Positions 26,356-60,354 of a DNA stretch of 64,000 nucleotides are shown piece by piece. The stretch comes from Apostichopus japonicus. Its lineage: Eukaryota; Echinodermata; Holothuroidea; Aspidochirotida; Stichopodidae. Under the pieces are notes generated by a model. That model was not told where the DNA came from. It did no database searches and saw only the letters and a program-made list of their open reading frames with translations. The position numbers and the translations under genes were made by a program. The number at the start of each line of letters is the position of its first letter. Within the stretch, counting starts at the first letter, position 1. The DNA lies in NCBI RefSeq assembly GCF_037975245.1, contig NC_092572.1, forward strand, positions 14,390,269 through 14,454,268, given 5' to 3'.

Positions 26356-26410
26356 ATGGACACTTCTTCTTCTGTATTATTCTTTGTAGGTCTTCTTTTG
26401 CGTGTTTCTG
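26356..26410 (+). CDS. Gene B exon 1, signal peptide
   Basis: ATG 26356 begins MDTSSSVLFFVGLLLRVS, a short N-region and a hydrophobic core. The exon ends in phase 1 at TCTG|GTGAGT. The following 1.47-kb intron holds a TA microsatellite and an interspersed repeat. Confidence 0.75.
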
Positions 26411-26759: not shown

Positions 26760-26831
<72 letters not shown>

Positions 26832-29800
26832 CGATTGTACTCAATTTGACCATTGATCTCTGACCTTTGGTTCCGAGGCCTACGTGACACATGGGTTTTC
26901 CCTTTAGTCCCTTTCCCTTATTTTGAAAAAAAAAACATAATGGTTTGTGACTCAAACAAAATTGAGCTAAAACATACATTGATTTTTAAACACGTGACTT
27001 TTGACCTCGGTTTCCATGACAACCATACATTTTGATAGCATATCCATGTGTCCTCTAAGAGTTATAGCCAAGGAAAAACGATTGAACTAAATGTGATCAT
27101 TGTTCATGGGTCGGGAAACTGCGAGACATTTGGATTCACCCTGGGGTACCTTCCCACCAAGGTTGAAGAAATTCGGTCCAGTCGTTTAGGAGGATGTTTT
27201 GAGACAAAATTGGACACACATACACGCCCCCACAATCACACATACGCACCTGACAAACACGCTCCACTCATACACGGACACGTTTTGACTCCTCCCTAGG
27301 TCATAGACTTCCGTTCACACTGATGTATCATACTTCTCCTGACCCCTTGAAACTAACTACTCGGGAAAACTTATCATTACCATGGCAATTGCTGCTATGG
27401 CAACAGACGTAGCTGTATATTACCCAACTGGCAAAAACCTACAATTTCCCAACCTCCCTATTGGATCGACGAGATAATATCAGTTAAAGTTAAATGAGTT
27501 AAGCTATATACATATATTATATGTAAATTTATGTATAAGTATCCATTATGTATATCTTGTATTTGTGTTTCGTTATGGAAGTGTTATCACTTAGGCTTCC
27601 GTGTCTGGCCAGCTACAGAAAATAAATCCATTGCTGCCCCAATATCCCCTCCTTTCTGCGTTTGTCATATTCACCCATCACTGTTTGGTTTAAACATTTT
27701 GAGTTTTATTCGATCATTCCATAATAATATACCGATGACTACTTGATGATATCACGGTATGAGGTAATGACTGTATGATCTACATTCAGTTAAAAAACTA
27801 CGTACCACAATCATTTTTGACATGTATATATAATATTGACATGTATATATATATATTCAATTTGGTGTTACGTTTGTTTATAGTCGCAGTACCTGCCCAT
27901 TCATGGGATGAATCAGACCTCTCAATGGCTTCAGTAGTGGTGAAAGAAGGGGAATCTGCGGAAATATCTTGCATGTTGAAGGAAAGCAACGTTGCATATT
28001 TCTGGTTAAAAGGCGGATCTCTCGAAAATAGCACTGTAGTTGCCTCTTTCATCAGCGGCCGTCCTACAAACGACCCTGACGAACCTTTCACTGTAACAGA
28101 AAATGGAACCCTTATCATTAAGACAGTAAGCCGTACCGATGAAGGAAAATATATTTGCAGAGTTTCTTCGAAAGAGATCAGTTGTCACGGTGAAGTTTTT
28201 GTATTTGTACAAGGTGAGTTCACTGCATTTTTCATTTATAGTGGTCAGCGGGACAACGGAATCACAATATCACTTAATAAAATAAGTTTGTTCCCAATTA
28301 AACTGCAAAAAAAGATTGACTCGTGCAATACGTTCCACGTTTTGACAAATATGACATGAAAATGTTTTTCTTAACGTGCAGCGAAAAGGGATAACATAGC
28401 ATGTTTAACATATGTTTAAATATGTGCAAATTGTTTTTATTAGATCAAAGCCGGTTTAACAAAAGCTATAAAGATATATGTAGTATATGAATGGAACAGT
28501 TTAACACTTAAAACAATGTAAGCAACAGTGTGAGCAAAGCTTAAATAGTACCAATATGTTACAACAGAAAAATTTTATTTTGTGTCATATTTGCAAGCTC
28601 CTTACAAAGTTACCGTGGTTTGTTAAAAACATTTTAAGCAATCAGCCCATCATTTTATTAGCTAACAAAATTGACAAGTTAAGTTGCATCTTCCTAAAAA
28701 AGGCCAAATATTAAACGTAAAACAATGTTACTGTTGGTACCAGTGTTGAATATCACTAAATTTAATTCTACGTGGAATTACGCTGGGTGTGTATTTTACG
28801 CAAGAACTTCCACACCAAGTTTAATCTTCAAAGATGCTAACCTTCTGTTATGATTATTTTATATTTAGCTGCTCTTCAAGACTTTCAGCTTACAATTGAA
28901 TATTGCGAGCCGGAGAACAGTTGTGTGATAAGCACTGAATCTACAAAACCAACATCGTTGACATGTAAAGCCACCAATGCGTCACCATCGATGAAATTAA
29001 AATGGTTTAATGGATCCCGTGAGATAAAGGTTAACATCGAAGAAAACAGTTTGACAAAGGAAACACCGAGAGAAATCTCTAGTACAATCAAAGACGTCTA
29101 CAAAGCTTCTTCTACGTTGACATGTCAAGCTGTAGATTTCAAGACGAGCAATGACGATGGAATGTTTGCTCATGTCCAATTCCGTACCCCTGGTAAGGAG
29201 CTCAAACAATTTGAAATTATATTATCTAGACTTTCCACGTTATAGCATTTAACCGAATTTGCAATTGTATTCTTAAATTGCCTTTATAAGTTCAATGTTG
29301 ATCAAATTCCTTTCAATTCTATACTAATGTCATATTCCTTTCATTGTCTTCACATACCCAGCTTCAACTGCAGATATATCTCCAGGATGGACTGTGACCG
29401 CCATTTTGTTTATTGTAGGATTTGTAATTGTGTTTCTTTTTGTAATCTTCTTCACAGGTAAGTACCTAGTTCATTTGCAATAATGAATACTTTTTTATTT
29501 ATATATGATTACTTCAAACACTAGAGCATGCAAGTTTTATAGTAAAATCGTACTCATCATTAATGTGCTTAACTTACAGAAACATCAGATATTTTTATTT
29601 AATTTTCGAGGCTATAATTTTTGTATGTAAATTAAGATAGCTACATCAACTTAATTGGTAGGAGTGTGTTTAAACAAGCGTTCTCTAATGTTCTTCAAAT
29701 AATCGATACAATTTATATTTTTCTATTAGTCTGGCCAAAGGTACGGAATGGGAAAGATGTTGAAACACAGTAAGCAAGTGTTATACTTCTTTAATAAAAC

Positions 29801-32800
29801 TATTGCTTTTCGATTGCTCCATTATCACTGCAACTAACGTAATGGTACTCAAAAACTTTGACAAAAATCACAACATTCATATAAAAAGAAAACAATTAAT
29901 TGCTACAGTTTCAAACCAAAAGCAGTTTTAGATTAGTAGTGATTTGATCGCTATTGGTTACCGTAAGCATTACCTTGATTACTTTTCACCAACGGATATT
30001 ACTATCTGTAAAGAATGCATGTCAATATTCTTTGTCGACTATAAAATCTGTGTATGCTCTGCTTAGCTAGTAAATTCATCTAAGCATATTCTATGGTTCT
30101 CCAATAGTGCTATACATTTTTCCAATACTATCCTTCCACTAACCCTACTCTCCCTTGCAATCATCATTTTCTGAACCAAATGGTAAAAAGCACCTGTAAT
30201 TCATATAATTTATTTCTATTTTGCAGGAACAGTCCAGAACAAGTGTCCCTGCTGGTATGCAATTGCCAAAAATACATACACTTTGAGAGTGATATACCAT
30301 TTTGTACTCGCTTATTCGATTCAAGAACATATTTTTGATACGATGAAAGTGCAACGCGAGAACTTGTATTCAAACAGTTCCTATTCTGATCATTTTAGCG
30401 CTTACTCTCTCACACAACGGTATCAATCAGGAAAATGATTAGCATGAGTTAAGACAAATGTTTACAATATTAAGCACCTAATGTAAATTATTGAATCCAA
30501 AACCTTAGTCGCGATTTTTTTAAACTGAGTTTCCCCTCCTTCTGCCGTACTTGCTTTTGAGAGAGTCATTAAACAAGAATTAGGACTCCTCGGCCCGTTT
30601 GGTAACGAGCATGAGTAGTATCCGTCAAAATACAAACATATATTATAAACCAAGATCATGTGCTGTAATTATTCTCTTTTGAAAGGGCTCAACCCTTACA
30701 CCGTTAAGTCTTGATTTAATTGAATTTAAGGGTTGAGAGTTATTTAGCTTTCGTGCTCTATCCTGTATATTATTCTCTCAACAAATTTCAGAAATCCACT
30801 ATGTTTTTCTTTAATCATTGCGCTAAGGGTGTTCTATGAGACTGAATTTAGGATTGCAAGTAAGGTTTGGTGTCAATAACCAAGTTACGTTAATGAAGTC
30901 TTTATTCTAAGTTTGAAAGTCCTTCACGCCGAAGGCCTGATAAGTACTAAACGGTGCGTAAAAGGTAGACTTCCATCTTATGTAACGTTGGTATCTCCCT
31001 TCGCGAGACAAAACCAGATTGGATATTGTAATCGTAGAATAACAGCTCAAGTTAGATTCAAAAGTACACACTTTTTACATGATTTCGTTATCTATTAATA
31101 TAATGAATTGCATACTTCAGCTCATACAGAAACTATCTTCATGTATATCTATTATCCCACAATGAGGTATCTATTATTTGCGTCAGCGTTCTATTTTGTC
31201 TAACATAATGTGAAGTAACATATGCAGAAATGACAAGAAGTATATAAAAGGGGTTATGTATTTTAATTCACAAGTGAATGTCAACATGATCAACATAGTT
31301 TACAATTACTGTTACTTTGCAACATGTATTCAACACCCCATAAATGATTTATTTCAGAGAGAATCGTTACATAATCGGCAACCTCTCAGCCGTTATATTA
31401 CACTGGCGACCAGGTTTTCCGCGCAATCATTCAATAAACATTTAGCACTCCACACTACTGAGCAAATAGCTGTTAAAAAAAAGTATATGTGTAAAAGTAA
31501 GTTGGCCTGACGTTAAGATCCTAGCAGGATTTTCTTCAAAGGCTTTATACACATTTTCCTACACGAGCTCTCTAGTGGATAAGCAGTTTGCTAACAGTTT
31601 TATTTCATTTTGGAAATTGAATATAGTTTAGTGACTATTGTTATGTATTATGAATGTATACGAGAGTTTTCACGGTGATTCCTTACACTAAGAATGGGAT
31701 AAATTTGTTTCTTTCGGCTCAGATGACATATTTAATATTACGATTTACATTATCCTATCAAAGGTTTGTTTTTACTAACGTTATGCTTTTTATGTAATGT
31801 TGTTTCATTTCTACAGAGATCAAAGCAAGATTTGACAAATAAAATTGCAGAATTGGAGGTAAGCATTTACGTCAAAATTATTTACAATTTATTGAACCAG
31901 GTGAAAGAGGATTAACACTACAAACTAAAAAAAAAAGTAGCCGGTATCAAACTGTTTGTATCCCCCCACCCCTCCAAGAAAAGAGAGAATATGGTTCAAC
32001 GACTATTGTAATGTATCTTGAAAGGTATGCGACGCTGATACTGGTAGTAACTTCAAAGTTGCACGAAGTCATTTGTGCTCAACCGAGAGATATGTTAAAT
32101 TATAAAATTAATGTCACACAGGCCATACCTACCATTTTCTTTTTCTTTCGATGAACTGAAATCCTCCCGTTGTGTTGATTGGCATCAAATAATTTGTGGG
32201 TAGATGGCTGGATAGATATTTATGTATGCATATATGAATGAACGGATTGGTGGATAGATGGATGATAGATTGATGGATTGATGGAGTAATGGATTAATGG
32301 ATGGATGGATGGATGAATGAATGGATGGATAAAAGAATGAAGGACCTTATGTATCCTACCAAAGTTTATTATAGAAATCTTATTACAGTTCGGCTTTTAC
32401 TGCTGTAGATGTGATTATTTTCTTATTGTACATTTGCTAAATTTTACATCAAAGCTGCGACGCATCGTCTTGCAAACCCAATCCCTCGGAGTTACCCTCC
32501 TTTCACATGAAATTTTTAAAGAAGTTCCTGACATCAACTTTTCCTAAAATGCCATAACAAGAGAGACAAATATTGCTTCTTACCACTTAAATATTTAGCT
32601 GTTTAATTGACGCTTAAATTCGGAAAAGTCCGGAGAGATTTTCAGTTGATAAGACAATATATTACAATTTCAACACGCAATTTCATATTAAATTTAACAT
32701 TTTGGATCATGCCTTTTTTTATTTGAAGAAATCTTTGGATACCGTTAAAAAAGATCTGTCGAATAAAAATGAAGAAAATCAGGTCAGTGGTAGCCATTAT

Positions 32801-35800
32801 ATTCTGCAATTGTAAAACATATCCATGAAACTGTAATTTTATTGCACATAGCTGAGAAGCAGTTTTTCACTAGAAGTCAATAGATCAGTAGTCACATTTA
32901 TAATTATTCAGCTTGCGCAATTTTAAAGAAATTATTTTTACATTCTTTTGTTAATATAAAGTTTTTACAGTCCCAATTTGCTTCGTATGATACATTCTTA
33001 AACCTTAAGACAAGGCAATTTGTTCCATCAAAATACCAGGAATTTGCTTTTTCGAAACATTTAAGTATATTAAAATTATTACAGTTACTCCAATAATGCT
33101 GATAATTCATTAAATATGATTATATAAGCAATTTATTTCACTGTTGGTAGTGTTTTTTGAGAACCTCGTCGACTAAACATCTCACACTCAATTATTTGAA
33201 TTTAATAATAAGGTTCACTGCAGAACAATATTGCCCGTTCCATATATGTCATAGTAAACTCCATGTTTGGTTAATCAGGTAGCTAGTGTATATTTTTATT
33301 TTGTATTGTATGAACAAATATCCTGCTGTCTTCCAAATTCAGGAACAGAAAGATAATTTTACGAAGAAATTATTAGAAATACAGCAGTTAAAAAGTGAAC
33401 TTAAGGTGAGTATGTCAATTAAGTATGTTTGTAGCAACTACTTACATTTGAATTTTTTGTTGGGAAAACAGTGAAGAATCACTGCCATTGGCGTTACAGG
33501 ATGTCCTTTATTCTTGATAATTGTATTATAAGTTTGATATTCTTTTGAATATTCTTGTTTTGCACAGCATTTAAAGGAGCAACTGACGGAAAAACAGGTA
33601 TGAGAAGTTTCAAGAAATGATTAAAGTTTACTTGACTTAGTCTTAGTTGTTTCTATTATATCATTTTCCAACCGGAAATAAATAATTATTTTCCAACTTA
33701 TATCATAAGGAGCGGATGCGTTTAAAAAACCACTTGTTTTGAGGTCCATATATTTAGTTTGTAGGTATTTAGTTTGTAGGTATTTAGTTTGTATGTATTT
33801 GTTTTCGTTTTTGTCACTAAGGTCCTTTTTCAGCATGTTTCATTGGACTACAATAAATTTATCATCTACGAGTTTTGTTCGATATATTGCTAGCAGTTTG
33901 AAATTATCTGGAGTGATACCTGCCAGCCCTACCAATAAGGGCTCACCTGAAGATAAACCCAAATATCTTAAATGTTGAGGAAAACGAACCTGTGTTTGGA
34001 GGATGGATGACTAAAAAAGTCTGTCAGACGTATGGTTTAGAACAATAATCCATATTTGAAGAGGAAAGATAATGTTAATGCCACCAATATCTAAGTATAT
34101 TGTCCAGTGTTACATTTATATGATATTCTATACTTCTTGTGATAACCAACGTAATTTATTTTTGATAAATCTGGATCTCATTTGATTTTGTATTCTTTTA
34201 TCTGTACATATCACCTTTGAACTAAAATATTTAGCTGTCTAAATGACGTGGAAACTTCCGAAAACTACGAAGAGATTTCAGCTGATAAGACAATTTATTA
34301 TAATTTCAAAACGGATCTTCATTTTAAATGTAATACTTTGATTCATGCTTTTTTTTTTTGATTGAAAGACATCTTTAGGAACCGTTACAGGAAATCTGTC
34401 GAGGACAAATGAGGAAAATCAGGTCAGTGGTGGCCATAATATACTGCAAATGTAAAACATTTCCATGAAACTTTTATTCTTCGAATTTGCCTTAGAAGCA
34501 GCTATTTTACTAGAAGTCATTAGACCAGTAGTCATATTTTGTAATCGTATATCCATTTTTCTGTTAATATAATAAAAAAATACAGTTTCAGTTGGCTTCG
34601 TATGATACATTCTTAAACATTAAGACAAGGTAATTTGTTCCATAACATAATGTATTAAAATACCGTAAATTTGCCCTTTTTTTTAAACATTTAAGTATAT
34701 TCAATTCACAAATGCTTATTTTTTATGATATATTATTATATCAACTTTTCCATATCACTATTGCTAAAGTTTTAGAGAACCGCGTCGACTAAACTTCTCA
34801 CATTCAAGCATATAAATTTGATTAACTACAAAATGCTAATAACTGTTTCATATTTGTCACAGGCTATTCCATTTTGGTCATTCAGATAGTTAGTGTAAAT
34901 TTTATTCTAAATTTTAGTGTAATTTTATAGTAAATTTTATTATATGAACAAATATGTTACTGTTTTCCAAATTCAGAAACAGAAAGATATTTTAGCGAAG
35001 AAAGACTTAAAAATTCAGCAGTTACAAAGCGAACTAACGGTAAGTATGGCAATTATGTATGTTTGTAGCAACTGCTTACATTTGCGTTATTTTCCGATAA
35101 AATATGTTAAAGCAACCCTTAATAGCTATTCTCTCCATAACTTTTTCTTGTATCGAGATGTAAAATTCATTGCTGATGACAAAAAGTATTGCGATAGGCC
35201 CACTAACCCATATGTGTCCTTTTAAAGATCATCATTATGTTAAATATACCAACATTTTCGGAATGACAGTTGTGCTTCGGGATGAGGTTGTTGAAACGGA
35301 AAAGCGCCTACGAACATAAAGGAAGAAGCTTGTGGTGCGTTTGTCAATAGAAACGTGAGTTCATTAACAGTAAAAGTGAAAGTGCTTCTTCAGGATAACA
35401 ATCATGTCAGATAATTGTATCACAAGATTGATATTCTTGTCTTGCACAGCATGTAAAAGAGCCACTGACAAAAATCCAGGTATGAAAAGTTTCAGATAAT
35501 GATTGCAATATTACTTGATGTAGTCTTAGTTGTTTCTATTTATCATTTCTAAAAGGAAATATAATAATCACATTCCAAAGTATATCATATTAAGCGGATG
35601 TCATGTTCTTGTTAACAATGCGTTTAAACTATGAAAATTTCTATATTTCTTATGACAAAAGGAGTTGTTGTAAATTTGCAGAATGCCTTATTTTCAGTAA
35701 AAGGCATTTAAAAGATCACTTCTTCAAGGTTGATCTATTTAGTTTATAGGCCTTTGTTTTTTCTTTGAGTCATTAAAGAGTTTCTTGACTTAGCTGTCTA

Positions 35801-38800
35801 AGACTTTCAATACACTATTCATCTGCGAGAGTGTGCAAGTTATTGCTATTTTGGGGAGGGCGAATGGGGAATATATGTTAAAGATGAGTTTTAGTGCATT
35901 GATGATAAATTCCTCATGTTTGCGCATGTGCAGATAAAATCACGTCAACATGAAGTGTTATGCACAACCTATGAGTTTGTGGCCAGGCTATTGCTCAATT
36001 ATGTTTTTTTACAAATATTATCTTCAGAAAAGTGAGCAAGAAGTCAGTTCCAAGCAAAATAAGTTGACTGAACGGGAAACTAATCTAATGGTTGGTACTT
36101 TTTCTACATACGTTACCTTTTACACTCTTGCTTTAGGGCAAAAACATAATTTAAACGTAAAGAATTATAAGCATTTCTTGACTTCTGTTGATAAAATAAG
36201 TTGTTTTAAATACGCAAAATGCCTTTCTCAGTAGAAGGTACTAAAAAGATCGCTTGTTCAAAGGTTGATCAGTTTAGTTTATAGGCATTTCCTTTTCGTT
36301 TGAGTAAATAATGAGGTTCTTGACTAAACTGTGCTAGACTTTTAATGCACTATTCATCTACGAGAGTGTGACTTAGTTATTGCTATTTTTTTGAGGGAAG
36401 GAGAGATGGGGAATATATGTTGAAGATGAGTTTTAGTGCATTGATAATGAATTGTTCATGTTGGTCGCATGTGCAGCTAAAATCACGTCAACATGAAGTA
36501 TTATGCACAACCTTATCATTCTATGAGTTTGTGACCAAGCTACTGCTAAATTATGTTCTTTAACAAACATTATCTTTAGAAAAGTGAGCAAGAAGTCAGT
36601 TCCAAAGAAAGAAGGCTGACTGAACGGGAAGCTAATCTAATGGTTGGTACTTTCTCTCCATACGTTACCTTTTACACTCTGGCTATAGGGCAATAGCATT
36701 ATTTAAAACGAAAAGAACTATGGGCATTTCTTGACTTCTGTTGATAAAATAAGTTGTTTTAAATACGCAAAATGCCTTTCTCAGGAGAAGGTTTTTAAAT
36801 GATCGCTTGTTCAAAGGCTGATCTATTTAGTTTATAGGCATTCCTTTTCGTTTGAGTAAATAATGAGGTTCTTGACTAAACTGTGTTAGACTTTTAATGC
36901 ACTATTCATCTACTAGAGTGTGACTTAGTTATTGCTATTTTTTGAGGGAAGGAGGAATGGGGAATATACGTTAAAGATGAGTTTTAATGCATTGATAATG
37001 AATTGTTCATGTTGGTCGCCTGTGCAGCTAAAATCACGTCAACATGAAGTGTTATGCACAACCTTATCATTCTATGAGTTTGGGACCAAGCTATTGCTAA
37101 ATTATGTTCTTTTACAAACATTATTTTTAGAAAAGTGAGCAAGAAGTTAGTTCCAAAGAAAGAAGGTTGACTGAACGGGAAGCTAATCTAATGGTTGGTA
37201 CTTTCTCTCCATACGTTACCGTTAACACTCTGGCTATAGGGCAATAGCATTATTTAAAACGTAAAGAACTATGGGCATTTCTTGACTTCTGTTGATAAAA
37301 TAAGTTGTTTTAAATACGCAAAATGCCTTTTTCAGGAGAAGGTTTTTAAAAGTTCGCTTGTTCAAAGGTTGATCTATTTAGTTTATAGGCATTTCCTTTT
37401 CGCTTGAGTACATAATGAGGTTCTTTACGAAACTGTAATAGACTTTTAATGCACTATTCATCTACTAGAGTGTGACTTACTTATTGGGTTTTTTTTTGAG
37501 GGAAGGAGAGATGGGGAATATATGTTGAAGATGAGTTTTAGTGCATTGATAATGAATTGTTCATGTTGGTCGCATGTGCAGCTAAAATCACGTCAACATG
37601 AAGTGTTATGCACAACCTTATCATTTTATGAGTTTGTGACCAAGCTATTGCTAAATTATGTTCTTTTACAAATATTATCATCAGAAAAGTGAGCAAGAAG
37701 TCTGTTCCAAGCAAAATAAGTTGACTGAACGGGAAGCTAATCTAATGGTTGGTACTTTCTCACCATACGTTACCTTTTATACTTTGGCTTTAGGGCAAAA
37801 ACATAATTTAAACGTAAAGAACTATGGGCATTTCTTTACGTCTGTTGATAAAAAAAAAAGTTTTTAAATACGCAACATGCCTTTCTCAGTAGAAGGTACT
37901 TAAAAGATCGCTTGTTCTAATATTGATCAGTTTAGTTTATAGGCATTTCCTTTTCGTTGGAGTGCATAATTAGGTATTTGACGAAACTGCATTAGACTTT
38001 TAATGCACTATTTATCTATGAGAGTGTGACTTACTTATTGGGGTTTTTTTTGAGGGAAGGAGAGATGGGGAAAATATGTTAAAGATGAGTTTTAGTGCAT
38101 TGATAATGAATTGTTCATGTTGGTTGCATGTGCAGCTAAAAGTACGTCAACATGAAGTGTTATGCACAACCTTATCATTCTATGAGTTTGTGACCAAGCT
38201 ATTGCTAAATTATGTTCTTTTACAAACATTATCTTTAGAAAAGTGAGCAAGAAGTCAGTTCCAAAGAAAGAAGGTTGACTGAACGGGAAACTAATCTAAT
38301 GGTTGGTACTTTCTCTCCATACGTTACCTTTAACACTCTGGCTATAGGGCAATAGCATTATTTAAAACGTAAAGAACTATGGGCATTTCTTGACTTCTGT
38401 TGATAAAATAAGTTGTTTAAAATACGCCGTGTGTAAGTATTTGCTGTTTCTTTAGATTTATTAAAGTGTTTCTTTCCAACATACTTATTAAAGTTAATTA
38501 GACTTTAATGAACTTATCAACTACGAGATTGTGTCTAAGTTATTTTCTTTTGCAAATATCTTTTTAAGACACGTGAGCAACAACACAGTTCCAAAGAAAA
38601 AAAGTTGATTGCTGATATGAAGGTTGGTACTTTTCCTCCATACATTATACTCTTGTCAATACCCGACAATGACATTGTCTGAATTCATTTTAATGTTATC
38701 TCTTCAACATTACTACTTTTCCTTACAAAACGTTAAATCAATTAATACAATCCCCCTGCCATGGGTAATGGCTTGGGTTCATGGTCATGCCTTTTTTTAG

Positions 38801-41800
38801 TGCATTGATAATGCGTTGCAGATAAATGACGTCTTCGAGTCGAAGTTTTGTACACGTTATGCTCCTCACACGATTTATTTGTTAAAGCAAGAAGACGTCA
38901 TTCTAATTGTAAATAGTGCAACAATTTTCAACTGGGTTAAATGACGTGTAGTGAATGTAAGGTTGACTGGAACATAGTTATTTAAATCAACATATTTCAC
39001 CAAGCATCATCGGTGATTGTAAACGACATGTTGTATATCAGCAAAAGTAAAGAAGTAGTCGACGTAACACTATCGCATGGAAAAACATGATTGAAAACAA
39101 CTGTTTGCCTAGTATAAGGTGTTATTCAGAATATAAAAGACAATTTCTGAAAAGTTTATTTTGTTTCTCTTGACTGTTTGATACAACACTGGTAAAAGGC
39201 CTACTTTGCTAATGTTAGCGATAAAAACTCTTGACTCCGAAAAAAGAGAACAAACGAAACAAAACGCACAACTGCAAGAAGTGATTTACTTAAACAACAA
39301 AGGAAATAATACCCACGGGAAAGAATATTTCTTTACCTAGATACTACAGGTTCGAAGTGAGTAGACAGTTAAAATTCCACAATATTGCACGAGAAATTTG
39401 ACGCTTAATATAAGGAATTATGTCATACAGTAACTTATAGACACACATTAAAACCAATGATGACGGAGATATGACTGTGTAAAATCTAAAATAATCTCGG
39501 CGAATATGGCTTATCGAACACTAAATTAGGTTTCCCATTAACATTAATGCAACTGATCTTACATTTAATACATGAAATATATAATGATAAAAGGTAAAAC
39601 TTACGACATTGGGCCTCAAAAATGCGATTTCGAAATCGACGAATGAAATGACGTGTGACGAATGCCGGAAGCCGTAGCACAGGGGCAAATTATAACTGAA
39701 CATGGAAGACACCCTCAATATTTATACTATATGCTACCATTACGAGTTTACACCTGAGTTTTTACTCAATTTGATATCTTCTTGTAACTGCTTTGTTTCG
39801 ATGTTAGCAAAATCATAGAGCTGTAGCTTAGAATGCTCTCAAAATGTGATGGAAAATTAAACAGAGGGGGGATGAGAAATCTCCTAAGACCACACCCCTT
39901 ACTTAAAAAATCTGGATGACTATAATTGTTGGTAATTTTATCCCGTCGTTGAAGTCCCCTTAGTTTATAAAAACATCTTCCCTCTCTACTTTGAACTCTC
40001 CAAAATAATATTGGAGAAAAAAAATATATATATTTACATGTCCTAATGGAATAAGATTAATAACTAGTTTCCCTTTGTTTGTTCCATTCATGTCGGGTAT
40101 TCAATGGACTTATAATTAGTGAATTGTAAGCTAGACGCCTGTTATATTGATTCCACAATGGAATCGAATTGAATTCAAAATTATGCTCTGTTGCAAAATT
40201 CTTCCAAAGAAAAGATGGGGATGGCATAAATACCACAAAACAGTTAAGTGATCGTCATACTAAGATAAATGTTAGTACTTCTCTAAGTGTTTCGTCATTC
40301 AATTGCGTATCAATGCTGGACTGTCGAGTAATTTGCATTTTGTCGAAGTGAATATTTTGAACATCACCTTCGTTTACTTAGGAAACACTTCAAACAAGTT
40401 CCTGTCATAGGAATCATTGTTAGTTTGATACAGTTTATTTACATTGCCTAGGTGTATTGGATTGATCATGAACTGGTCATGTCTGTTACATGAGCATAAA
40501 TAACCTAATAAGGAGTATAAAAGTACCGACTAACATTGTTTTATAGATGCCAGGGATTTCATACGAATACTGTCATGCCAAAGAGATATAGTTTTAAATA
40601 TGATAATGCTTTTAGAACAAAAACTGTTAGCAAACTGCATCCACTAAAGAACCGGTTTAAGAGAATGTGTAAAAGTAAGTGGGCCTGACGTTTCGATTAG
40701 ATAATTAGTTGACAAGGATGGAGAGAAGAAAGAAACCAAAAGGGAAAAGAGGAGAGGAAGGAGAAAAACAAATACTGTAGAAGGACAAAGAGAATATTAA
40801 GGAAAAGACAGGAATAAACTGCAAAAGAACAAAAAAGAAAGAAAAGTCTGCAGAAAGGAGGTGGCAGAGAGCTGGGTTATGCCAGGTCGTGATCTAGTAC
40901 GACTCAGCAAAGAAAGACTGTGGATGCAACGCCTACGCACCATTCAACCTCATAAGCTAAACATTCAGGAAGGACATGACTAACCTTTCGTCTGCCCCAC
41001 CTCCATCTCCCCGTGTTCCCTCCATTCCATTGATCAAATAATATTTCAGAAATCTTGATCATTGCCTTAGAAGTGTATATAGTTATTGCAAGAAAGCTTT
41101 GGGACGACCCAGATCCATTTTATATGGGGGTCCTATCCAAAATCCCTCGGACTTTATCCCCCATCTAAAGGCCTGGATCCACTTTCAATATTGTGTTATT
41201 TTATCACGTCGGTGAAGGTCCCTTTGTTTAGAGAGTTGCTTTACCCTCCCCACCCCTCCACCATTTTCTCTCTCTCTTCTTTGAATTTTTAACAAAAGAT
41301 GCCCTCATATTAAATGTATTAACAAAATATGCACAACTTTAACGAGTTGGATTAATTCATTGGTATCTTTTCGTTTGTATCCATGTGGGGTATTTGATTG
41401 TACCGGATACAAGTGCATTGCTTGCAAGACGTATGTTATAATAATATAAATATCCAATCAGATCATATTCCTGAATTATTATTTTGTGTTGCAAAATTCT
41501 CCTTTAGAGTCATGACAATGACATGAATTCGAAAGTATCAAAGTTAAAGGAACAAGAAAAGGTTAGTACCAATCTTTACATTTTAGCAAACCTTCAAGAT
41601 AAAGTATAAATTCTAGCCCTTCGAAGACGAAAGATAAAGGCAGGAAATAACATTGCCCATATCTCATGCATCATCATTGAATAATCTCTTTAGCTTGGCC
41701 GATACCTCTGACTTATATATTATAAATGGTACACAGTTATCATGAATACTGTTAAAACTAATCAATAGCATTGTCTTATGTAATACTATATATTTTATCA

Positions 41801-44800
41801 CTGCTTGATTAATAAGTCAATATATCATGAAAGTAGCAGTACTTATTAAATTTCTAGTTTTTATCATTCATTTGATTTATTCATGCCTTCAAGGAGTTGC
41901 CGTTTGACTCCACATATAAATTTTAATTAAGTTATTATAATCATAACGACAAGAACAAATCAGAAATAGAAGAAGAAAAATGTAGATATATAGAATAAAC
42001 ATATACATAATATTTTAGCCAAATAATTAATCAACGACTTAATAATATTCAACATATATTTAATTTTTGTTCAAATATTGGCACCGCATTTTAGATCATA
42101 TTACATCTTACTATTACAATATGTAATCCAAGTAAACACTGTCAGTATGTATAAGTTGCCTTCCAAATATCGATTAAACTACTTTAACATGATCCGGAAG
42201 AATTGACATCATCTGATGTAATTATAAATTATTTTAGTAATTTCATTAACTTAAAGTTTCAGTATGGTTTCAACGTCGACTCTCAACATAACGTAATGCT
42301 TGTGCTCCTTCCCATTTTTCTACACATTTTTCAAATACTCTCTAGTCATCAATAGCTAGGTTAATAGTTACGTTTATGACCGTCAGACGAAAGTTGCACA
42401 CTGTGTAGGCTACTGGTACTTCAATATTAAGTATCAAAGTCAACATAATCGCTTACATATGCGTCCGATTAATTTTTGGGAATCCTGTCTAAAAACACGG
42501 AAAGCGATCCTTTAGTAGAATTTTTTAATTGCTCGATCTCTTTGCGAATGGATCGCTTCTTGGCAAAAGTGAATAATGAAGATTGCGTAATTATTTGCTA
42601 AACGGTACCAAAATAATAGTAGAGTTAAGGATCGAGTACCGGTACATTGTGTTTGTATTGGAATGCATGTTGAGGCAATAGGGAGCATACAACAATTGCT
42701 ATTCAGCTCGAATGTATAATAAAACAGTAGTATATTGTTAAGGTTAGAGTGATACATATATTTCTCACTCTCTCTACTGAACTATTACTGGCAATGGTGT
42801 AGAAACGGAACTTAGTTAATATGTACGTATATAAAACTATAAATAATAGCATGTTGTTTAACCAACATCTTGAAATCGAAAGTAGAAATAAATTTTAACG
42901 TTTATAAATCTGCCTTCAAGCTACATAAGATAAGCACTTTATTATATTGAATATTGTTCTTAATGCTACTTCTGATTTTATAGAATGTGACTTTAAACTT
43001 AAACTACATTAAGTCTGAAGACATAATAAGTCGATGTTCATGTAATTTTCAATAGATGAGCAATATTGTCACCAGTACATTTACAAATATACTGAAATGA
43101 TTCAGGTTTCGTTTTGGTTTTCAATATGTATACTATTATGGAACAATCATTCAACCAGCAATATTCAAACTGTTACTAAATTATTATCCTAGAAAACGTG
43201 GGAATGTAGTAAATTCCAAAAAAATCATATGGGCTGAACCTGAGCTGGGACAAATTTTGGTAGTTTCTTTTTACTGTTTTTGCCACGGTGCTATCATATT
43301 GAGCTATTTATATATGTGATTTTCTATTTCGGTTTATGACACAAAATTGCTTACCTTCCTGTCGAAAATGTTTCCAGCTCATCCACTGCAAAACTCTCTA
43401 TCTCTTGAACAATTTTGATCAATCTTACTGCTCTTTCCATTATTGTAATTTCCCAAAGTTATTTTACTTTGGCTCATTTCTTATATCAAGTAGCACGTAA
43501 ACAGTTTTACTCAAAATAAATTGTTCAGTATAAATATTATCGTGCATTAAATATTTTCCTCTTTTTTCGAAGAAGACTGAAACAGTTATACTTTCATTTC
43601 ACAGGATCAATTATTGCGCATTGAAAGGAAAAGAAGGGAATTTCGCTTGGATCAAATTTCTGCAAAGGTAATTCTGTTTAACTACAACGTTTCCTGTGTT
43701 GTACATAATTATCATAATATTTGTTTACTCAATACTTACAACGAGCATGATACACACGTACTCAGTCTTACCCAAAATATTATAGACGTTTATTTCTTCG
43801 AGAACGGTAACTCATTTAAATACGACACAGGGATTACTTTATTAACGATGTTTACAACCAACTTTGTTGAAAATCAAACCACAGAATGCTACTTAATTAC
43901 ACCAAAAGTAAGTAGATTTTTATAATAGAAGTGCATAGCTTTGTTTAATAAAAAAACAGTAAACAGCAGATAAGGAATTCCAAACGAATGGTTTCGTTGT
44001 CGAAATACAGAGATATTATTCCATCAACCTAAAAGATTTAATAAATAAATAAATATATGTTTAATGTTCTGTAGTTTATAATGGGTCCTTTCATTGTTGT
44101 GTGCATCTTACGTACATAGGCGTTACACTTTAATATTATTGCCTGGTGGGAGAAACTACTTACATATTTATTATTTGCTTCACTTAATAAATACCATATG
44201 CATTTTTTAGCTTCCTTTGTTATTTCTGCATATTATCCCCAGTCCCAACAACATTAGAAAAATCTCTTTGTACACAGTCCTTGCTGTTGGTGTAAATTAA
44301 CACGACATGTTACAAAATTAGACCTATTTTATAATGTACTGAGCAATAGTCCATAGTTGTCACTTAATTTTCTTTTTTTCCCCACTTTGTTTGCGGAAGT
44401 TACCAGGTTTGAACTGAGGTCACTTCTCTTTGTACTTTGTCGTTATTCATGTTTGACAATTCTGTATATTTACCATGTTTCGTTACTTCGGTTTGATCAT
44501 CATTTCTTGTTATGTTCGGTTTACTTATCTTCATTAAACGTGTTTCTCCCAGGATCCTGTTCGCATCAACTGCAGAGTGATAACGTCAAGGGGTAGCGAA
44601 GATACCCGTGTCGCCACCCAGGAAATATCTGGTCAAGCGACAGTGAAAACGGTAATAATGCTAATGATGAGAAACTATTTTACTTGAATTGTACTAGTGA
44701 TTTACATGCAACGTAATTCTAAAACGAAGTATTCATATGATTTGTATTTCTGAAATTGGAAATACTATTTATTCTCCTACTATTTCTACGAATGAATGTC

Positions 44801-47800
44801 TATACCGTTGTAACATAAGCTAAGTGTTTTATTATCTACATCTTGAAGTTGTTTTTAATGGTATAAAAAATATCAAAATATTCATATTAGCTTACTTATG
44901 TCTTCATACTCGTTGTCGTGCTCGGAACAATGTAGTCTTACACGGTACATTATTGTTATTTGTTGTTCTTTTCAGAAAAGCAAATTATGGTTTCAATCAA
45001 AGGACGCCAAGTTTCATAGGATCTACTCTGCTAGTGAGAAATCGATAGATTTATGTCAATCTATCGTTGACTTAGTTGAGGTACGTTCTTTCCATAATGT
45101 ATTTACCCTGATTCCGTTTGCTTTATTTGTTATATGTTAAGGTTGATCTTTGATTTTTATCTAACAGAATGCAATCGATGGAAAATATTCATGTTTGATT
45201 GCCAATGATTTTATTGGACGTGAACACTGGAAGACAATGTTTGGACCAGACGATGGTGCCAGCGATGCCCTTGTGCCATTTGTCGTCACGAAGATTTTCG
45301 AGAGGACTAAAGAGTTGACAGCATTAGATTATGAGGTTAGAAAAATTCTTGGAAAAACATTCCAATCGTTTTGAAAATGACATATTTCGTACGATAAATG
45401 CAAAAATATTAGCAACTCGAACCTCAAAGTATTATAGATTTTCCGATCAAACCTGAAAACCGTAGTTAATTAACTTCCGATTGAATCCATATTTGTTTTA
45501 TACAATCAATTTTCGTCAACCATTACCCATGTTCTTTGTGGCAGGCAATATATATTACAAATGTAAGATGCAAAACGATAATGACTGTCACCACATAAAA
45601 AAAAAAAAACATTCTCTCGAAGGGGCTCATTCCACGCTCCTTCGACAAGCATCCAAGGAATATCGCCCATGAATGAAGACAGTATTCAAAAAACGGCTCA
45701 GATTACCTGCCAGTTTTAACAATACCACAATCATCATGTCACACAGGCCCATTGACAATGCAAACTGTCCATGAATCATCATCCAATGATCGCAATCGCT
45801 TGATACGCTTGATTTGTAAGGTATATTCCTCGTTCTTATAAGGTAAATTCCCTTTCACTTTTTTGGAGCATCGGAACCGATCAAAAATGTGCCAAATCGC
45901 TGTCCGACAGAGTATCCCCAGCCGGAACAGAAAAAAAACCCATAAAAACGTACTGGGGTAAGGGGCAGACAAATATCAGAAGAAGGTACTGAAGAAAAAA
46001 AAAACACCTTGTGGGGCAAAGGCAGTCGAAGGGGTTAAATAGCAGTACCATTTACCGGATAAGCAAATAATATAGGCACCTGCAGCTTTAACCGACTCTG
46101 TAGGGGGCTCCTGGTACCCCCCCCCCCCGTCGCCTTCCCGACCTACATAAACGTTCCTCTTTGACTTGTACCCAAAACGAAAGCATTGCACCCCATCGGT
46201 TTTAGTGGGTCGGTCATTGGCTTAAGGGCTGGGCGCCTCACATCTGAAACATGTGCGAGGCACATGATTCTCAGTTATTGTGATGCCCAAACAGAATGAC
46301 ATGTACTGAAAGAGTAATGTTCACCTAAAGTTGTGACTTCATACAACACCACGCAATAGCCTTTCTTTATCACAACAAAGTGTAAACTAATAGCTGTATC
46401 GAGCCAGGTACCATCTTCAAGCACCTTGTTACAGGCAAAAATTTATGTCTTATTCTAAGCAATTTTAAGAACGATACTATAAAAATGGTGTATCATTGGA
46501 GTTCTCCAGAATTTCAGCAGAGGATATGGGTCACCGTAACTGATATGTTTAAAACAGTATCGATAACAGTTAAGAGAGCACAAGAAGGTGCATACATGTT
46601 TTGACTGCCGCCAACCCTCCCTTCCTCCTTCCCCTCCCAACCCCCCTTAAAACTTTCAAATAAACTCGTTACGAACGAAAGCTTGTACAACACACATGTA
46701 TTTGAAATCCTCACCCAACAAGTTCAACTGTGGGCGTTTTCGTGATCAATTTATGTTTGTAGCTAATTGTTACTGTTAACAAATGTCAAAACAGATACAG
46801 GCGCCTCCCTGCTTCCGTCCTTGCGTCCAAGGTCATGTTTTCGTTATATACGATCAATTGAGCAGCTGAAGAAACCTACATTTTCGAAACATGTGGTTGG
46901 CAGCAACCCCCTAAAAACTCAACAGCACTTTATGTTGTTTTATTTATTTTTATTCCTTTAGCTAGTTTAATAAAAATGATTAATATATAAGGCGATAAAA
47001 CGACCTGGCATAACATGATTCAATGTTGGGTACTTTGCTCCTTGGAAACATTAAATCTGAAATAAATGTTTCTCTCATATACTGTGGCAAATTCAACACA
47101 TGCAGTAACTTAACCAAGTTCAAATAACTGTGTCGTTTAAGCAATTGGAATGATTTTGTTGTTTTTTTTTGTAGGTTGATGTACAGGCAAGATTCTTGTT
47201 TGGCATGTATATGCTAAAACCAAGTGCCAGTACGCTGCCTTCATTTGCCGATGCTCTTGATAAAGGCGCGAGTTTTGCTAATATCAAGAGTGTTCCTAAA
47301 GTTGCGATAGAAGACGAGGAAAAGGTTATTTTGAATTTGCTTTAACATATCAACCTTGCAGACTCATAAGTTCATATAATTAGTTTCTTTCTCTACTATG
47401 CATGACTATAGTGTGCATTTTACGTAATATACGTAAACACGTAAAATTTTGCGTGACCTTCATCTCCAAAATTTAATTGAGAATTCATCATGGTAGTACA
47501 TGATAGTAATAAAATGATGTTGAGACGGCATTTGCAATGACAAAAGGGGGAAAAACACTTAATGCTGGTATATGATGTAACTTAATTTTACAATATAAAT
47601 GTGAACACAAAGCACACTACGTTTGTACAACCTGTGTGTTATGTTCAATCTTACACAATAGTATGTTACTACATTGATTGACAGAAGTAAAATGCGTTAC
47701 TTTTCTCCCCTTCTCTTGATTAGGCTCTTGAACTATTGAAACAAAGTCGTGGAAAGTATGGAATAGTGGATGTTGACACCGAACACTTTGTCCAGTTTTA

Positions 47801-49934
47801 CATTCAGACCAAACGTAATAAGGAAACACATGCAGGTAACTTATATGTACAACTATTTGCGAAGTAATTTGGCAAACAAACATGTTATAAGCAGTTTACA
47901 GATGTATACAAAAAGTAAGCTAATATACTCTTCTCCTTAGGTGTTCTGCTATTAGGAACTTTCGGAGGTGTGCGGGTGGTTAAGGAGTGCTTTTGTTTGG
48001 TGGATCCATCGTCTCCAGTTACCAAGACAATCTCAGATTTTATCTTTGATGACCGATGCAGAAGGTAAAGTTATTTGACTAACAATACCCCATTCATTAT
48101 AGTTTGATCAAGGTTTTTAATTCATATCAGTGTTTGGCTACTCACATGTTCTCTGGAAAGCGCATCAAGAGCATTCCCTAAATGATTGTTTTATAACTGA
48201 CTGTCTTGTATTTTTAGTTCTCAAAGTCGTATGATATTAGTGATGTGTACGACTCATAGCAATAGTAATATTTACCAGACTACTACAAAGATTATATATT
48301 ATATAACTTATCATCGAAAAATTAGATTTTGAAATCGACAATTTTTTTCACAACATTTGTTTTCCAGTCACAAGTAATACAAAATTTGTCAAAATCGTTA
48401 AAATGTCTTATCTTAAACCTGCATTATTTAGTGAAAGTGAAAATTAAAATTATTCTCGACAATACGGATACTAATTTGAATTCATGAATAAATTAAATAA
48501 GTAAAGGTGCACTAGCACTAGTAAAGGAGAGCTGCAGTTGCTAACCTACCCTACCCTCCATCCCTCCCGCCCCCCCAAAAAATTAACAAAACCATAACAA
48601 TATGTAAACATACATTAGTTTTGTTTCCTACAAAACGTGATCAGTGTTTGAATTGGTCGTTACATTGAATATTTCATGCGTGAGCTGAAAAACACTTCCT
48701 TGAGCAAACGTGCGATCGTAAATAGGATGATCGATTCGAATAGTCGTTATATTTACACGTTAAATATGTTTATCTTATGGTCGTTGACAAATGTGCCTGA
48801 GCAGTATACAACAAACCAATTCTTCTACATGCCATAGTGGTTTTACAACAATTTATAGTTACATTAGTATAAGTCCTTTGTAATAGGATGGAGTTGTCAT
48901 GGAGTTATCTGGTAATATAAGTAGGCCACTGCTTCTTAATACCAGGTCAGCAATAATGATGTTGATAGTAGAAAAAGGAAAACTCAACTGATACCCGATC
49001 TAGATCATTCGTTTTCATTTTTTTTTTTACTTTGAGCAATGTTCGGAATGGCAGTCGTAAATGCACGATGCCAGCTTACGCATTCGGTACACAATGTAAT
49101 TCGAGGAACTGACCGAAGACTATGCCGAACTTTGACCATTGATCTACATCACTCCATATTTGAAATGAAGATGCTTAAACGCATGTAAATATTAAACCGA
49201 CATATACTTTCTTTTGTCAGTATTTCTTCATCAAGGGCATGTAGTGAATGAACTGAGGATTATAGTATTAACATTTAAAAGACATTTCGTAATTATTTTA
49301 ATTCAACACCATATCCTCCTTCTAATGTATTGTTGAAAATGTTTTCTTTCTCCATAGCGTACTTATAACACATATCCATCAAGACCAAGTAAGCGAAGCC
49401 AATGATTGTCTGGCTATAGTCAAAGAGGTAAGACAACATATTGCATTACCCTACATGTTTTATACATATTCCATATTCACAGTACCAAATAACTCTAACC
49501 GTAAGGTATTGTTATCAGTAATTGCGTTTCGTGATGCGTATTTCGTTGTAATTCTTTATAATTTCCCAGATAACATTTACAGGTAAATTGATTTGAGCAT
49601 TAATCCGGATAAGAATGTTTCATAATCATTCCACATAAAGATATTCAGCCTACTGTCGGAAGCGCACCGTGCTGTTTTAAATTTATTTCTCTTGTTAAGG
49701 TTTAATGTAGGAACGCTAAAGCGTTATATATGTTTCTGTTAGTATTGCTAACCAGTAATTCAATCGTATTTCAAAACCTATATCGAAGCAACAATATATC
49801 AAGTGCTTAAAAATGATGTAATATTGCATTTTTTTTTCTATTGATCAATACTTACATGCAAAGTATATGTTAACGTAATTGTTCAACTAACATGAATGCT
49901 CATTTCCTAGATTGGAAAGAAGACCAAGAAATGA
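26356..49934 (+). CDS. Gene B: Ig-Ig-transmembrane-coiled coil-degenerate kinesin-14-like protein (29 exons, 848 codons)
   Basis: Exons: 26356-26410, 27884-28213, 28869-29192, 29362-29457, 29730-29769, 30227-30254, 31817-31858, 32729-32782, 33343-33405, 33568-33597, 34369-34422, 34977-35039, 35450-35479, 36028-36090, 36580-36642, 37131-37193, 37685-37747, 38239-38301, 38569-38622, 41508-41561, 43605-43667, 44553-44651, 44976-45080, 45168-45335, 47175-47324, 47724-47835, 47941-48064, 49358-49427, 49911-49934. All junctions are GT/AG and in phase; total 2,547 nt with stop. Residues: signal 1-18, Ig1 19-128, Ig2 129-236, transmembrane about 247-268, basic/polar tail to 291, coiled coil 292-565, kinesin-14-like region 566-848. 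Predicted topology: Ig domains outside, coiled coil and motor-like domain in the cytosol. The alternative is two neighbouring genes, a short Ig receptor ending after 30254 and a separate kinesin-like gene starting in the coil. The fusion is inferred from phase, strand and the lack of a clear start or stop between them. Confidence 0.6.
26762..26833. repeat. TA microsatellite in gene B intron 1
   Basis: (TA)n tract interrupted once by TATG near its end. Confidence 0.9.
26845..27300. repeat. Interspersed repeat ending in a CACA-rich tail
   Basis: Contains TTGACCATTGATCTCTGACC and GTTGAAGAAATTCGGTCCAG with TCGTTTAGGAGGATGTTTTG, then a CACACATACACGC-rich tail (27217-27275). This layout resembles a SINE or the 3' end of a LINE. 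It has no coding frame of its own, and the class is not certain. Confidence 0.45.
27884..28213 (+). CDS. Gene B exon 2, Ig1 (V-like) domain
   Basis: 330 nt, phase 1 to phase 1, acceptor TTTATAG, donor CAAG|GTGAGT. Ig hallmarks are Cys48 (EISC), Trp59 (AYFWLKGG), TLIIKTV and the D-x-G-x-Y-x-C motif Asp104-Glu-Gly-Lys-Tyr-Ile-Cys110. An extra Cys119 (EISCHG) is shared with gene A. No lesion is present. Confidence 0.85.
28869..29192 (+). CDS. Gene B exon 3, Ig2 (C2-like) domain
   Basis: 324 nt, phase 1 to phase 1, acceptor ATATTTAG, donor CCTG|GTAAGG. Shows Cys141 and Cys147 near the N-terminus (EYCEPENSC), Cys161 (SLTC), Trp174 in LKWFNGS and Cys214 (TLTCQA). The exon is paralogous to 1219-1565 of gene A. 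Confidence 0.85.
29362..29457 (+). CDS. Gene B exon 4, transmembrane segment
   Basis: 96 nt, phase 1 to phase 1. After STADISPGWTVT it encodes AILFIVGFVIVFLFVIFF, a single membrane helix, followed by the basic WPKVRNGK of the next exon, consistent with a type I (N-out) protein. Confidence 0.85.
29730..30254 (+). CDS. Gene B exons 5-6, juxtamembrane tail
   Basis: Exon 29730-29769 (40 nt) and exon 30227-30254 (28 nt) encode VWPKVRNGKDVETQ and NSPEQVSLL. The second ends in phase 0 at CTG|GTATGC, so it joins to the coiled-coil exons without a frame change. If the last donor were not used, the frame would stop 27 codons later, a possible short receptor-only end. There is no tyrosine motif here, unlike the tail of gene C. 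Confidence 0.65.
31490..31610. repeat. Dispersed repeat copy with an inverted half
   Basis: TGTAAAAGTAAGTTGGCCTG (from about 31491) recurs at about 40669. GCAGTTTGCTAACAG (about 31586) is the reverse complement of CTGTTAGCAAACTGC at about 40625. The two copies therefore have one half inverted relative to the other. No coding content is seen. Confidence 0.5.
31817..33597 (+). CDS. Gene B exons 7-10, start of coiled coil (module copy 1)
   Basis: Exons 31817-31858, 32729-32782, 33343-33405 and 33568-33597 (14, 18, 21 and 10 codons), all phase 0. They encode RSKQDLTNKIAELE, KSLDTVKKDLSNKNEENQ, EQKDNFTKKLLEIQQLK... and HLKEQLTEKQ: Lys/Glu/Gln/Leu-rich with heptad character and no proline. The last three exons are duplicated at 34.4-35.5 kb. 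Confidence 0.7.
32196..32340. repeat. (TGGA)n/(ATGG)n-type microsatellite
   Basis: Imperfect TGGATGGATGGATGAATG units in the intron between exons 7 and 8 of gene B. Confidence 0.85.
33756..33803. repeat. Three 15-bp direct repeats
   Basis: TATTTAGTTTGTAGG occurs twice in a row and then once with a change, between exons 10 and 11 of gene B. The right module copy lacks it. Confidence 0.8.
34369..35479 (+). CDS. Gene B exons 11-13, coiled coil (module copy 2)
   Basis: Exons 34369-34422, 34977-35039 and 35450-35479, phase 0, encode TSLGTVTGNLSRTNEENQ, KQKDILAKKDLKIQQLQ... and HVKEPLTKIQ. Compared with copy 1, the first exon has become less helical (LGTVTG) and the third has gained a proline. 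Copy 2 may be a weaker coil or a hinge. Confidence 0.65.
35640..38430. repeat. Five-unit tandem array (~553 bp each), one exon per unit
   Basis: Exon starts at 36028, 36580, 37131, 37685 and 38239 give spacings of 552, 551, 554 and 554 bp. Introns are nearly as similar as exons: TTGACTTCTGTTGATAAAAT, GGCATTTCCTTTTCG and GATGAGTTTTAGTGCATTGA recur in each unit. A diverged sixth exon (38569-38622) follows at a shorter distance. The array is entirely within gene B. Confidence 0.9.
36028..38301 (+). CDS. Gene B exons 14-18, five 21-codon coiled-coil repeats
   Basis: Exons 36028-36090, 36580-36642, 37131-37193, 37685-37747 and 38239-38301, each 63 nt, phase 0, acceptor CAG/TAG, donor ATG|GTTGGT. 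Each encodes KSEQEVSSK followed by QNKLTERE or ERRLTERE and (T/A)NLM. Copies 1 and 4 carry the QNK type (copy 4 also has Ser to Cys), copies 2, 3 and 5 the ERR type. Since 21 residues are three heptads, any number of units keeps both the reading frame and the coil register. Confidence 0.8.
38569..43667 (+). CDS. Gene B exons 19-21, end of coiled coil and kinesin-14-type neck
   Basis: Exon 38569-38622 encodes TREQQHSSKEKKLIADMK, a diverged relative of the array exons with the same GTTGGT donor. Exon 41508-41561 encodes SHDNDMNSKVSKLKEQEK. Exon 43605-43667 encodes DQLLRIERKRREFRLDQISAK, which resembles the neck of C-terminal-motor kinesins (basic RRxLHN-like segment directly before the first motor strand). 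All are phase 0. Confidence 0.65.
39930..40290 (+). pseudogene. Decayed duplicate of gene B exon 20 and its 5' intron
   Basis: 39930-40290 aligns with 41195-41580: ATCCCGTCGTTGAAGTCCC against ATCACGTCGGTGAAGGTCCC, then TGTTGCAAAATTCTTCC against TGTTGCAAAATTCTCC, and the GTTAGTAC donor. The corresponding frame reads KDGDGINTTKQLSDRHTKIN before GTTAGT. From the available AG the phase is not 0, so it would break the frame and is probably skipped. Confidence 0.5.
40560..40700. repeat. Dispersed repeat copy
   Basis: CTGTTAGCAAACTGC then TGTAAAAGTAAGTGGGCCTG and ACGTTTCGAT; related to the copies at 31490-31610 and 17935-18060. Confidence 0.5.
44553..45335 (+). CDS. Gene B exons 22-24, N-terminal half of the kinesin-14-like region
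   Basis: Exons 44553-44651, 44976-45080 and 45168-45335, phase 0. DPVRINCRV matches the first kinesin strand (kinesin-14: GNIRVFCRVRP). KFHRIYSASEKSIDLCQSIV then DLVENAIDGKYSCLIA matches the F-D-R-V-F...I...LV.SALDGYN-C-I-F-A segment. NDFIGREHWKTMFGPDD sits where kinesins have the P-loop GQTGSGKTYTM. Here only Lys-Thr-Met and GPDD remain, so the nucleotide-binding glycines are gone. VPFVVTKIFERTKEL matches the IPRAV..IF helix. Family assignment is by eye. Confidence 0.6.
47175..48064 (+). CDS. Gene B exons 25-27, central part of the kinesin-14-like region
   Basis: Exons 47175-47324 (phase 0-0), 47724-47835 (0-1) and 47941-48064 (1-2). VDVQARFLFGMYM takes the place of V..SFLEIYNE, and SVPKVAIEDEEKALELLKQS fits the VP.L....V.S.EEV..LL segment. 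TEHFVQFYIQT lies at switch I (NEHSSRSH...F.I) without its Ser-Ser-Arg-Ser-His. GVLLLGTFGGVRVVKE lies at switch II (LVDLAGSERV) without Asp-Leu-Ala-Gly. The region after it is shorter than in active kinesins. Confidence 0.55.
49358..49934 (+). CDS. Gene B exons 28-29, end of the kinesin-14-like region and stop
   Basis: Exon 49358-49427 (phase 2 to 0) encodes SVLITHIHQDQVSEANDCLA then IVKE. Exon 49911 adds IGKKTKK and TGA at 49932-49934. Together with DFIFDDRCR from the exon before, this matches the LLQDSLGG.SKTLMFV.ISP...ETL.SL.FA.RV end of kinesin motors, and it stops shortly after, as expected for a C-terminal motor. AATAAA at 50330-50335 is a candidate polyadenylation signal. Confidence 0.6.
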
Positions 49935-60345: not shown

Positions 60346-60354
60346 TACAGTTTT

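Follow-up and report, generated by a model that had tools for sequence, protein, structure and literature searches.

A sea cucumber gene that very probably joins an immunoglobulin receptor to a coiled coil and a C-terminal kinesin-14-like head

The stretch studied here (the window) comprises 64,000 nucleotides (nt) of Apostichopus japonicus DNA from contig NC_092572.1 (positions 14,390,269 to 14,454,268). It contains a 29-exon gene, and it is very probable that this one gene encodes an immunoglobulin (Ig) receptor followed by a coiled coil and a C-terminal kinesin-14-like head. This order had been proposed by a first-pass annotation and is borne out by the exon chain, by four of four database isoforms and by the predicted folds. 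The exon chain, the domain order, the recurrence of that order in a second gene, the kinesin ancestry of the head and the loss of its P-loop can all be read from the sequence.

Exon chain and database isoforms

The exon chain was rebuilt from the raw sequence ahead of database searches, using stop-to-stop frames, splice signals and a reading of the DNA, with the first-pass coordinates of exon 3, exon 23 and the two ends as an assembly guide. The chain occupies 26356-49934 (+) and encodes 848 residues and a stop. As had been stated, it has 29 exons in consistent phase: all 28 introns are GT-AG and every junction is in phase. Exon 3 (28869-29192), exon 23 (44976-45080) and the head (residues 566-848) were recovered at the positions given earlier. 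The start phase is 1 in exons 2-5, 2 in exon 6, 0 in exons 7-26, 1 in exon 27, 2 in exon 28 and 0 in exon 29. Pfam searches of single genomic frames at 43001-50502 (+) returned no domain even at E <= 10, because the head exons are short and the spliced head is required.

A query with the head (residues 555-848) retrieved P0001-P0004, all named 'uncharacterized protein [Apostichopus japonicus]' (isoforms X3, X9, X10 and X11), the name under which the protein is already public. The P0004 entry is a cluster of seven sequences, and the comparison covered its one representative. All four were reproduced exactly by the 29-exon model minus some of the cassette exons 14-18; the cassettes retained were 14 and 18; 14 and either 15 or 16; 14, 15 and 16; and 14, either 15 or 16, 17 and 18. 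Near-identical cassettes could mislead read mapping, a caveat on these isoforms. A random concatenation of exons was ruled out by the exact match. All four proteins are full length. The database isoforms are an independent gene model that makes the same joins, among them the critical one between exons 6 and 7. NCBI isoform models are largely based on RNA reads.

The annotation might have fused two adjacent genes, one for an Ig receptor that stops near 30.3 kb and another for the coil and kinesin-like head. The frame of exon 6 indeed runs open to a stop just past 30335, and the support for the fusion is at the level of annotation, not of reads. However, the four retrieved isoforms span the full length, coil exons 7-13 contain no methionine, and a second A. 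japonicus gene, represented by P0005, has the same domain order, with 9 of 14 residues identical in its counterpart of exon 7. Such an artefact is very improbable. The exons of the single gene, with the evidence for each, are as follows.

26356..26410 (+): exon 1, start codon and signal peptide (by eye); identical in P0001-P0004
27884..28213 (+): exon 2, Ig domain 1, phase 1-1; Pfam Ig_3 and V-set
28869..29192 (+): exon 3, Ig domain 2, phase 1-1; a further Ig_3 match and a weak C2-set_2 match (E 0.31)
29362..29457 (+): exon 4, membrane helix; hydropathy 3.28
29730..29769 (+): exon 5, juxtamembrane; exons 5-6 jointly 17/23 identical to P0005
30227..30254 (+): exon 6, juxtamembrane, final exon upstream of the coil; exon chain
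31817..31858 (+): exon 7, coil begins; 9/14 identical to P0005
32729..32782 (+): exon 8, coil block A; exon chain
33343..33405 (+): exon 9, coil block A; exon chain
33568..33597 (+): exon 10, coil block A; exon chain
34369..34422 (+): exon 11, coil block B, duplicate of exon 8; exon chain, block alignment
34977..35039 (+): exon 12, coil block B, duplicate of exon 9; exon chain, block alignment
35450..35479 (+): exon 13, coil block B, duplicate of exon 10; exon chain, block alignment
36028..36090 (+): exon 14, 63-nt coil cassette 1; present in 4/4 retrieved isoforms
36580..36642 (+): exon 15, coil cassette 2, inclusion varies; isoform comparison
37131..37193 (+): exon 16, coil cassette 3, inclusion varies; isoform comparison
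37685..37747 (+): exon 17, coil cassette 4, inclusion varies; isoform comparison
38239..38301 (+): exon 18, coil cassette 5, inclusion varies; isoform comparison
38569..38622 (+): exon 19, coil; exon chain
41508..41561 (+): exon 20, coil; exon chain
43605..43667 (+): exon 21, coil end or neck; exon chain
44553..44651 (+): exon 22, kinesin-like head begins; exon chain, Pfam
44976..45080 (+): exon 23, kinesin-like head, helix 1 region; exon chain, Pfam, KAR3 alignment, predicted structure
45168..45335 (+): exon 24, kinesin-like head, degenerate P-loop position IANDFIGREHWKTM; KAR3 alignment
47175..47324 (+): exon 25, kinesin-like head; exon chain, fold comparison
47724..47835 (+): exon 26, kinesin-like head, switch I position with motif lost; alignments
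47941..48064 (+): exon 27, kinesin-like head, switch II position with motif lost, next segment apparently shortened; alignments
49358..49427 (+): exon 28, kinesin-like head, final strand and final helix; alignment, predicted structure
49911..49934 (+): exon 29, terminal seven codons and stop; exon chain

Receptor and coiled coil

By its predicted features, the product is a type I membrane receptor with a signal peptide, two Ig domains outside and one membrane helix. The two Ig domains and the helix had been recognised earlier, and we found Pfam matches to Ig_3 (3.3e-12 in the full model) and V-set (1.8e-11). Hydropathy peaks at 3.28 in a 19-residue stretch that begins with residue 251. These features fit a type I membrane receptor of the immunoglobulin superfamily, with the signal peptide assigned by eye only.

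The long coiled coil was likewise confirmed. Its heptad periodicity is 0.98, against a shuffle mean of 0.38 (standard deviation 0.08), and was reached by 0 of 500 shuffles. The cytoplasmic coil has about 270 residues, and the P0004 model predicts a helix at 287-543 with one break. At 36028-38301 (+) a unit of about 552 bp occurs in five tandem copies, each of which carries a single 63-nt coil exon in phase 0; their introns measure 488-491 nt, and successive ones are about 91-94% identical. One cassette encodes 21 residues, exactly three heptads, so that the register can survive skipping, which fits a real coil. A three-exon coil block is also tandemly duplicated (32729-33597 and 34369-35479, +), with 685 of 810 aligned bases identical; its exons (121/143) are no more conserved than the whole block.

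Kinesin-like head

On the head alone, the Pfam family Microtub_bd scored 29.7 bits (7.3e-07), above its cut-off of 27. On the full protein it scored 26.6 bits, just under that cut-off, and the Kinesin family was absent from the matches listed. Microtub_bd was the top-scoring Pfam family on the heads of both the 29-exon gene and P0005; we take this family to be built on Vik1/Cik1-type heads. The concern raised in the first-pass annotation, that profiles might show no kinesin match, is answered by the Microtub_bd score.

Motor-domain homology runs across the head, as in the kinesin superfamily. The exon order and the coil periodicity place the head at the C-terminus after a coiled coil, as in kinesin-14s. 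The nearest proteins are of the Kar3/Ncd/KIFC/KCBP kind by best sequence and best Foldseek matches, not by a tree, and ranking by Z of the fold of the 29-exon gene did not separate kinesin-14s from other kinesins. Among the Foldseek matches listed, the best were kinesin-14s, and the models still show a kinesin fold across most of the head. These results indicate, at the level of sequence, that the head descends from a kinesin-14 motor domain whose adenosine triphosphate (ATP) site was lost.

The P-loop of a functional motor (GQTGSGKT in KAR3) is missing from both the 29-exon gene and P0005. In the alignment, KAR3 AYGQTGSGKTFTM stands opposite ANDFIGREHWKTM of the 29-exon gene, and the P-loop position of P0005 reads AFGNSRRHDQMKTM. 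Switch I (SSRSH) and switch II (DLAGSE), as found in KCBP, are also lost: P0005 aligns to KCBP across this region with a score reached by 0 of 1000 shuffles, and neither motif is intact. Around these switches the 29-exon gene is more distant from kinesins than P0005. Its C-terminal half aligns to that of P0005 (0 of 1000 shuffles reached the score) and is tied to kinesins only through P0005. In P0005, the stretch resembling that after helix 4 begins about 13 residues after the switch II position, versus about 48 in Ashbya Kar3; this second Ashbya Kar3 alignment is weak (-2.0 bits) and is backed by a shuffle test (0/1000). By inference, both genes have lost most of loop 11, helix 4 and loop 12. 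An active motor was ruled out by the loss of the P-loop, and motor activity of the head appears very unlikely. Microtubule binding by the head is a possibility.

A second gene with the same domain order

A query with the Ig domains retrieved 8 of 511 candidates, all eight from A. japonicus, among them P0005 and P0006 (761 residues). P0004 and P0006 are both labelled X3 and differ in sequence, and were therefore taken to come from separate genes; a tblastn search across the window did not find P0005 encoded elsewhere in it. P0005 is identical to the 29-exon gene at 13/18 residues in the signal peptide, 98/109 in Ig domain 1, 101/108 in Ig domain 2, 24/32 in the membrane exon, 17/23 in exons 5-6, 9/14 in exon 7, 52/172 in the rest of the coil and 76/268 in the head. 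The Ig exons are thus 90-94% identical and the heads 28%, which inverts the usual receptor pattern. The two heads nevertheless align with a score of 215, against a maximum of -1 in 300 shuffles. Identity falls off past exon 7, which suggests either a later duplication or homogenisation of the 5' half than of the 3' half, or much stronger constraint on the 5' half; for the contrast between Ig exons and head, the alternatives are gene conversion in the 5' half and unusual constraint.

Three further proteins of the Ig search, P0007, P0008 and P0010 ('cell adhesion molecule 1-like' or uncharacterized), share the two-Ig ectodomain at 41, 42 and 46% identity. They have 275-319 residues with short tails and no kinesin match at E <= 0.1, and lie on another contig (32.4 Mb), whereas the isoforms of the fusion genes lie on a 34.6-Mb contig. 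The short tails of these receptors make the coil and head look like an addition, although the direction is our reading.

Among proteins of about 467-1484 residues, the head query matched 4 of 2597 candidates, all from A. japonicus; among proteins of 199-632 residues it matched 0 of 1632 at E <= 10. P0005 and P0006 were missed in the first of these two ranges, although their length falls within it. A word-based search therefore overlooks relatives with a head identity of about 30%, and the searches do not establish absence from other species.

Proposed function and its alternatives

The coil would bring together two receptor chains or join one such chain to a partner, and if extended would hold the head up to about 38 nm below the membrane (257 residues x about 0.15 nm), a length that would vary through skipping of the repeated cassettes. 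ATP hydrolysis by the head is not expected, and binding is therefore its most likely role. It would dock ATP-free, as the non-catalytic heads of yeast Vik1/Cik1 do, and once docked would tie contacts made outside the cell to microtubules or a partner kinesin, with adhesion or engulfment by coelomocytes as possible settings. The whole proposal, receptor architecture plus cytoskeletal docking by the head, is the leading explanation, at slightly less than even odds. More tentative still is a new class of animal receptor, in which an Ig receptor with its own non-catalytic kinesin-14-derived head would couple recognition directly to coelomocyte microtubules, with a reach tuned by splicing and a fast-evolving head on a conserved ectodomain.

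Several results weigh against this proposal. The evidence for a single transcript consists of isoform models from public annotation. The AlphaFold models are of low confidence (mean predicted local distance difference test scores 48.0 and 45.4; predicted template modelling score 0.32) and were built on alignments of 3 and 5 sequences, all from A. japonicus, with the head modelled within a longer chain; among the Foldseek matches listed, superpositions had root-mean-square deviations of about 8-11 Å, and no TM-score normalised by target length exceeded 0.46. The profile check suggested in the first-pass annotation for residues 566-848 was divided: Microtub_bd passed, and Kinesin reached 18.1 bits against a cut-off of 29.3 (E 0.0014). 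The C-terminal half of the 29-exon gene did not align significantly to two kinesin stretches (score reached by 268/1000 and 847/1000 shuffles). Exons of the coil duplicates show no more conservation than their introns, so that the coil sequence is weakly constrained; the coil of P0005 has weak periodicity (reached by 60/500 shuffles), and the two coils show no significant likeness (score 71, shuffle maximum 74). The protein searches with head and Ig domains found no relative outside A. japonicus. In canonical kinesins the loop 11/helix 4 stretch is a main microtubule contact, and this segment seems to be shortened here, which speaks against a canonical microtubule grip. The direct link to a microtubule-binding module suggested at first is not supported in that form, with the P-loop lost in both genes and the loop 11/helix 4 stretch apparently mostly gone.

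These losses speak for a reading in which the architecture is real and the head is a repurposed platform for protein interaction or signalling, with no cytoskeletal role. The P-loop and switch motifs are lost, the helix-4 region is apparently shortened, and the heads stand at 28% while the Ig exons kept 90-94% identity, which would mean that selection has not kept the catalytic and main microtubule surfaces. However, the kinesin fold is recognisable over most of the head, the kinesin-14 layout of coil and then C-terminal head is preserved, and no alternative partner is known. We regard this as unlikely, yet the strongest competitor of cytoskeletal docking. The same losses and the very fast divergence of the two genes could also mark a decaying, functionless relic. 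Both heads, at 28% identity, retain about 280 open codons and a kinesin-like predicted fold, whereas neutral sequence so diverged should contain stops, and a relic is highly improbable.

Between them, PMC8699970, PMC13133943 and PMC4338441 describe yeast Cik1 and Vik1 as non-catalytic kinesin-14 heads that act as heterodimers with Kar3, and whose head can bind microtubules and modify the partner motor. They also describe AjNLRC4 and AjNLR-new of A. japonicus, receptors with Ig, membrane helix and NACHT that act on actin or microtubules in Vibrio phagocytosis. By analogy with Kar3-Vik1 or Kar3-Cik1, the coil could pair with a catalytic kinesin-14 chain to give a membrane-anchored heterodimeric motor, and the 29-exon gene likewise has a coil ahead of a dead kinesin-14-like head. 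A homodimer is simpler, no partner was identified, and the apparently shortened helix-4 segment is unlike Vik1; this arrangement is improbable.

Docking by a non-catalytic head would resemble Vik1/Cik1, which likewise have a coiled coil and, behind it, a C-terminal head of kinesin-14 type that lacks an ATP site. The 29-exon gene shares this type, with no nucleotide site and a coil before the head, but its coil hangs from a membrane Ig receptor and its helix-4 region seems shortened; yeast Vik1 and Cik1 are not membrane receptors. As in the motors Kar3, Ncd, KIFC1 and KCBP, the coil precedes the head and the protein stops just past it; unlike them, the head lacks P-loop and switch motifs, ATPase activity is not expected, and it is attached to a receptor. 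AjNLRC4 and AjNLR-new are reported to be Ig-bearing membrane receptors of the same species with an unusual second module, but this is NACHT instead of a kinesin-like module, and the Ig part of AjNLR-new is reported to be intracellular. That two Ig-bearing receptors of the same animal are reported to act on actin and microtubules in phagocytosis offers a ready assay.

Among the matches listed in a literature search by title and abstract opening, with few subscription papers, no Ig receptor with a kinesin-type domain was found. The parts are of known kinds, and the combination of Ig receptor and kinesin-like head appears to be new. Receptors usually contact microtubules through adaptor chains. 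A receptor with a built-in kinesin-derived head would, if true, be a direct link to them, and a motor domain would have been domesticated as a receptor tail after loss of its ATP site.

Other features of the window

Further genomic frames were scanned with Pfam at 50001-59702 (+), 1-9902 (+) and 54299-64000 (-). An Ig pair at 604-870 and 1238-1525 (+) is about 36% identical to the Ig domains of the 29-exon gene and has an in-frame stop in its first member; beside this pair (604-1525) there was no convincing match to coil or head. The start of another Ig gene lies at about 5552-6140 (+): a signal peptide exon may lie at 5552, judged by eye, and an Ig_3 match (1.6e-12) marks an Ig domain at about 5830-6081 (+). 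Another Ig domain, at about 54360-54617 (+), is interrupted by an in-frame stop and could be a decayed copy; it matches Ig_3 at 5.8e-07 when stops are read as Q. Open frames at 12029-12655 (+), 12906-13376 (+) and 10574-11002 (-) resemble, by eye, pieces of reverse transcriptase of the long interspersed nuclear element type. A match to the transfer RNA (tRNA) family at 23736-23808 (+; 52.9 bits) lies near AT repeats and may be a gene or a tRNA-derived repeat.
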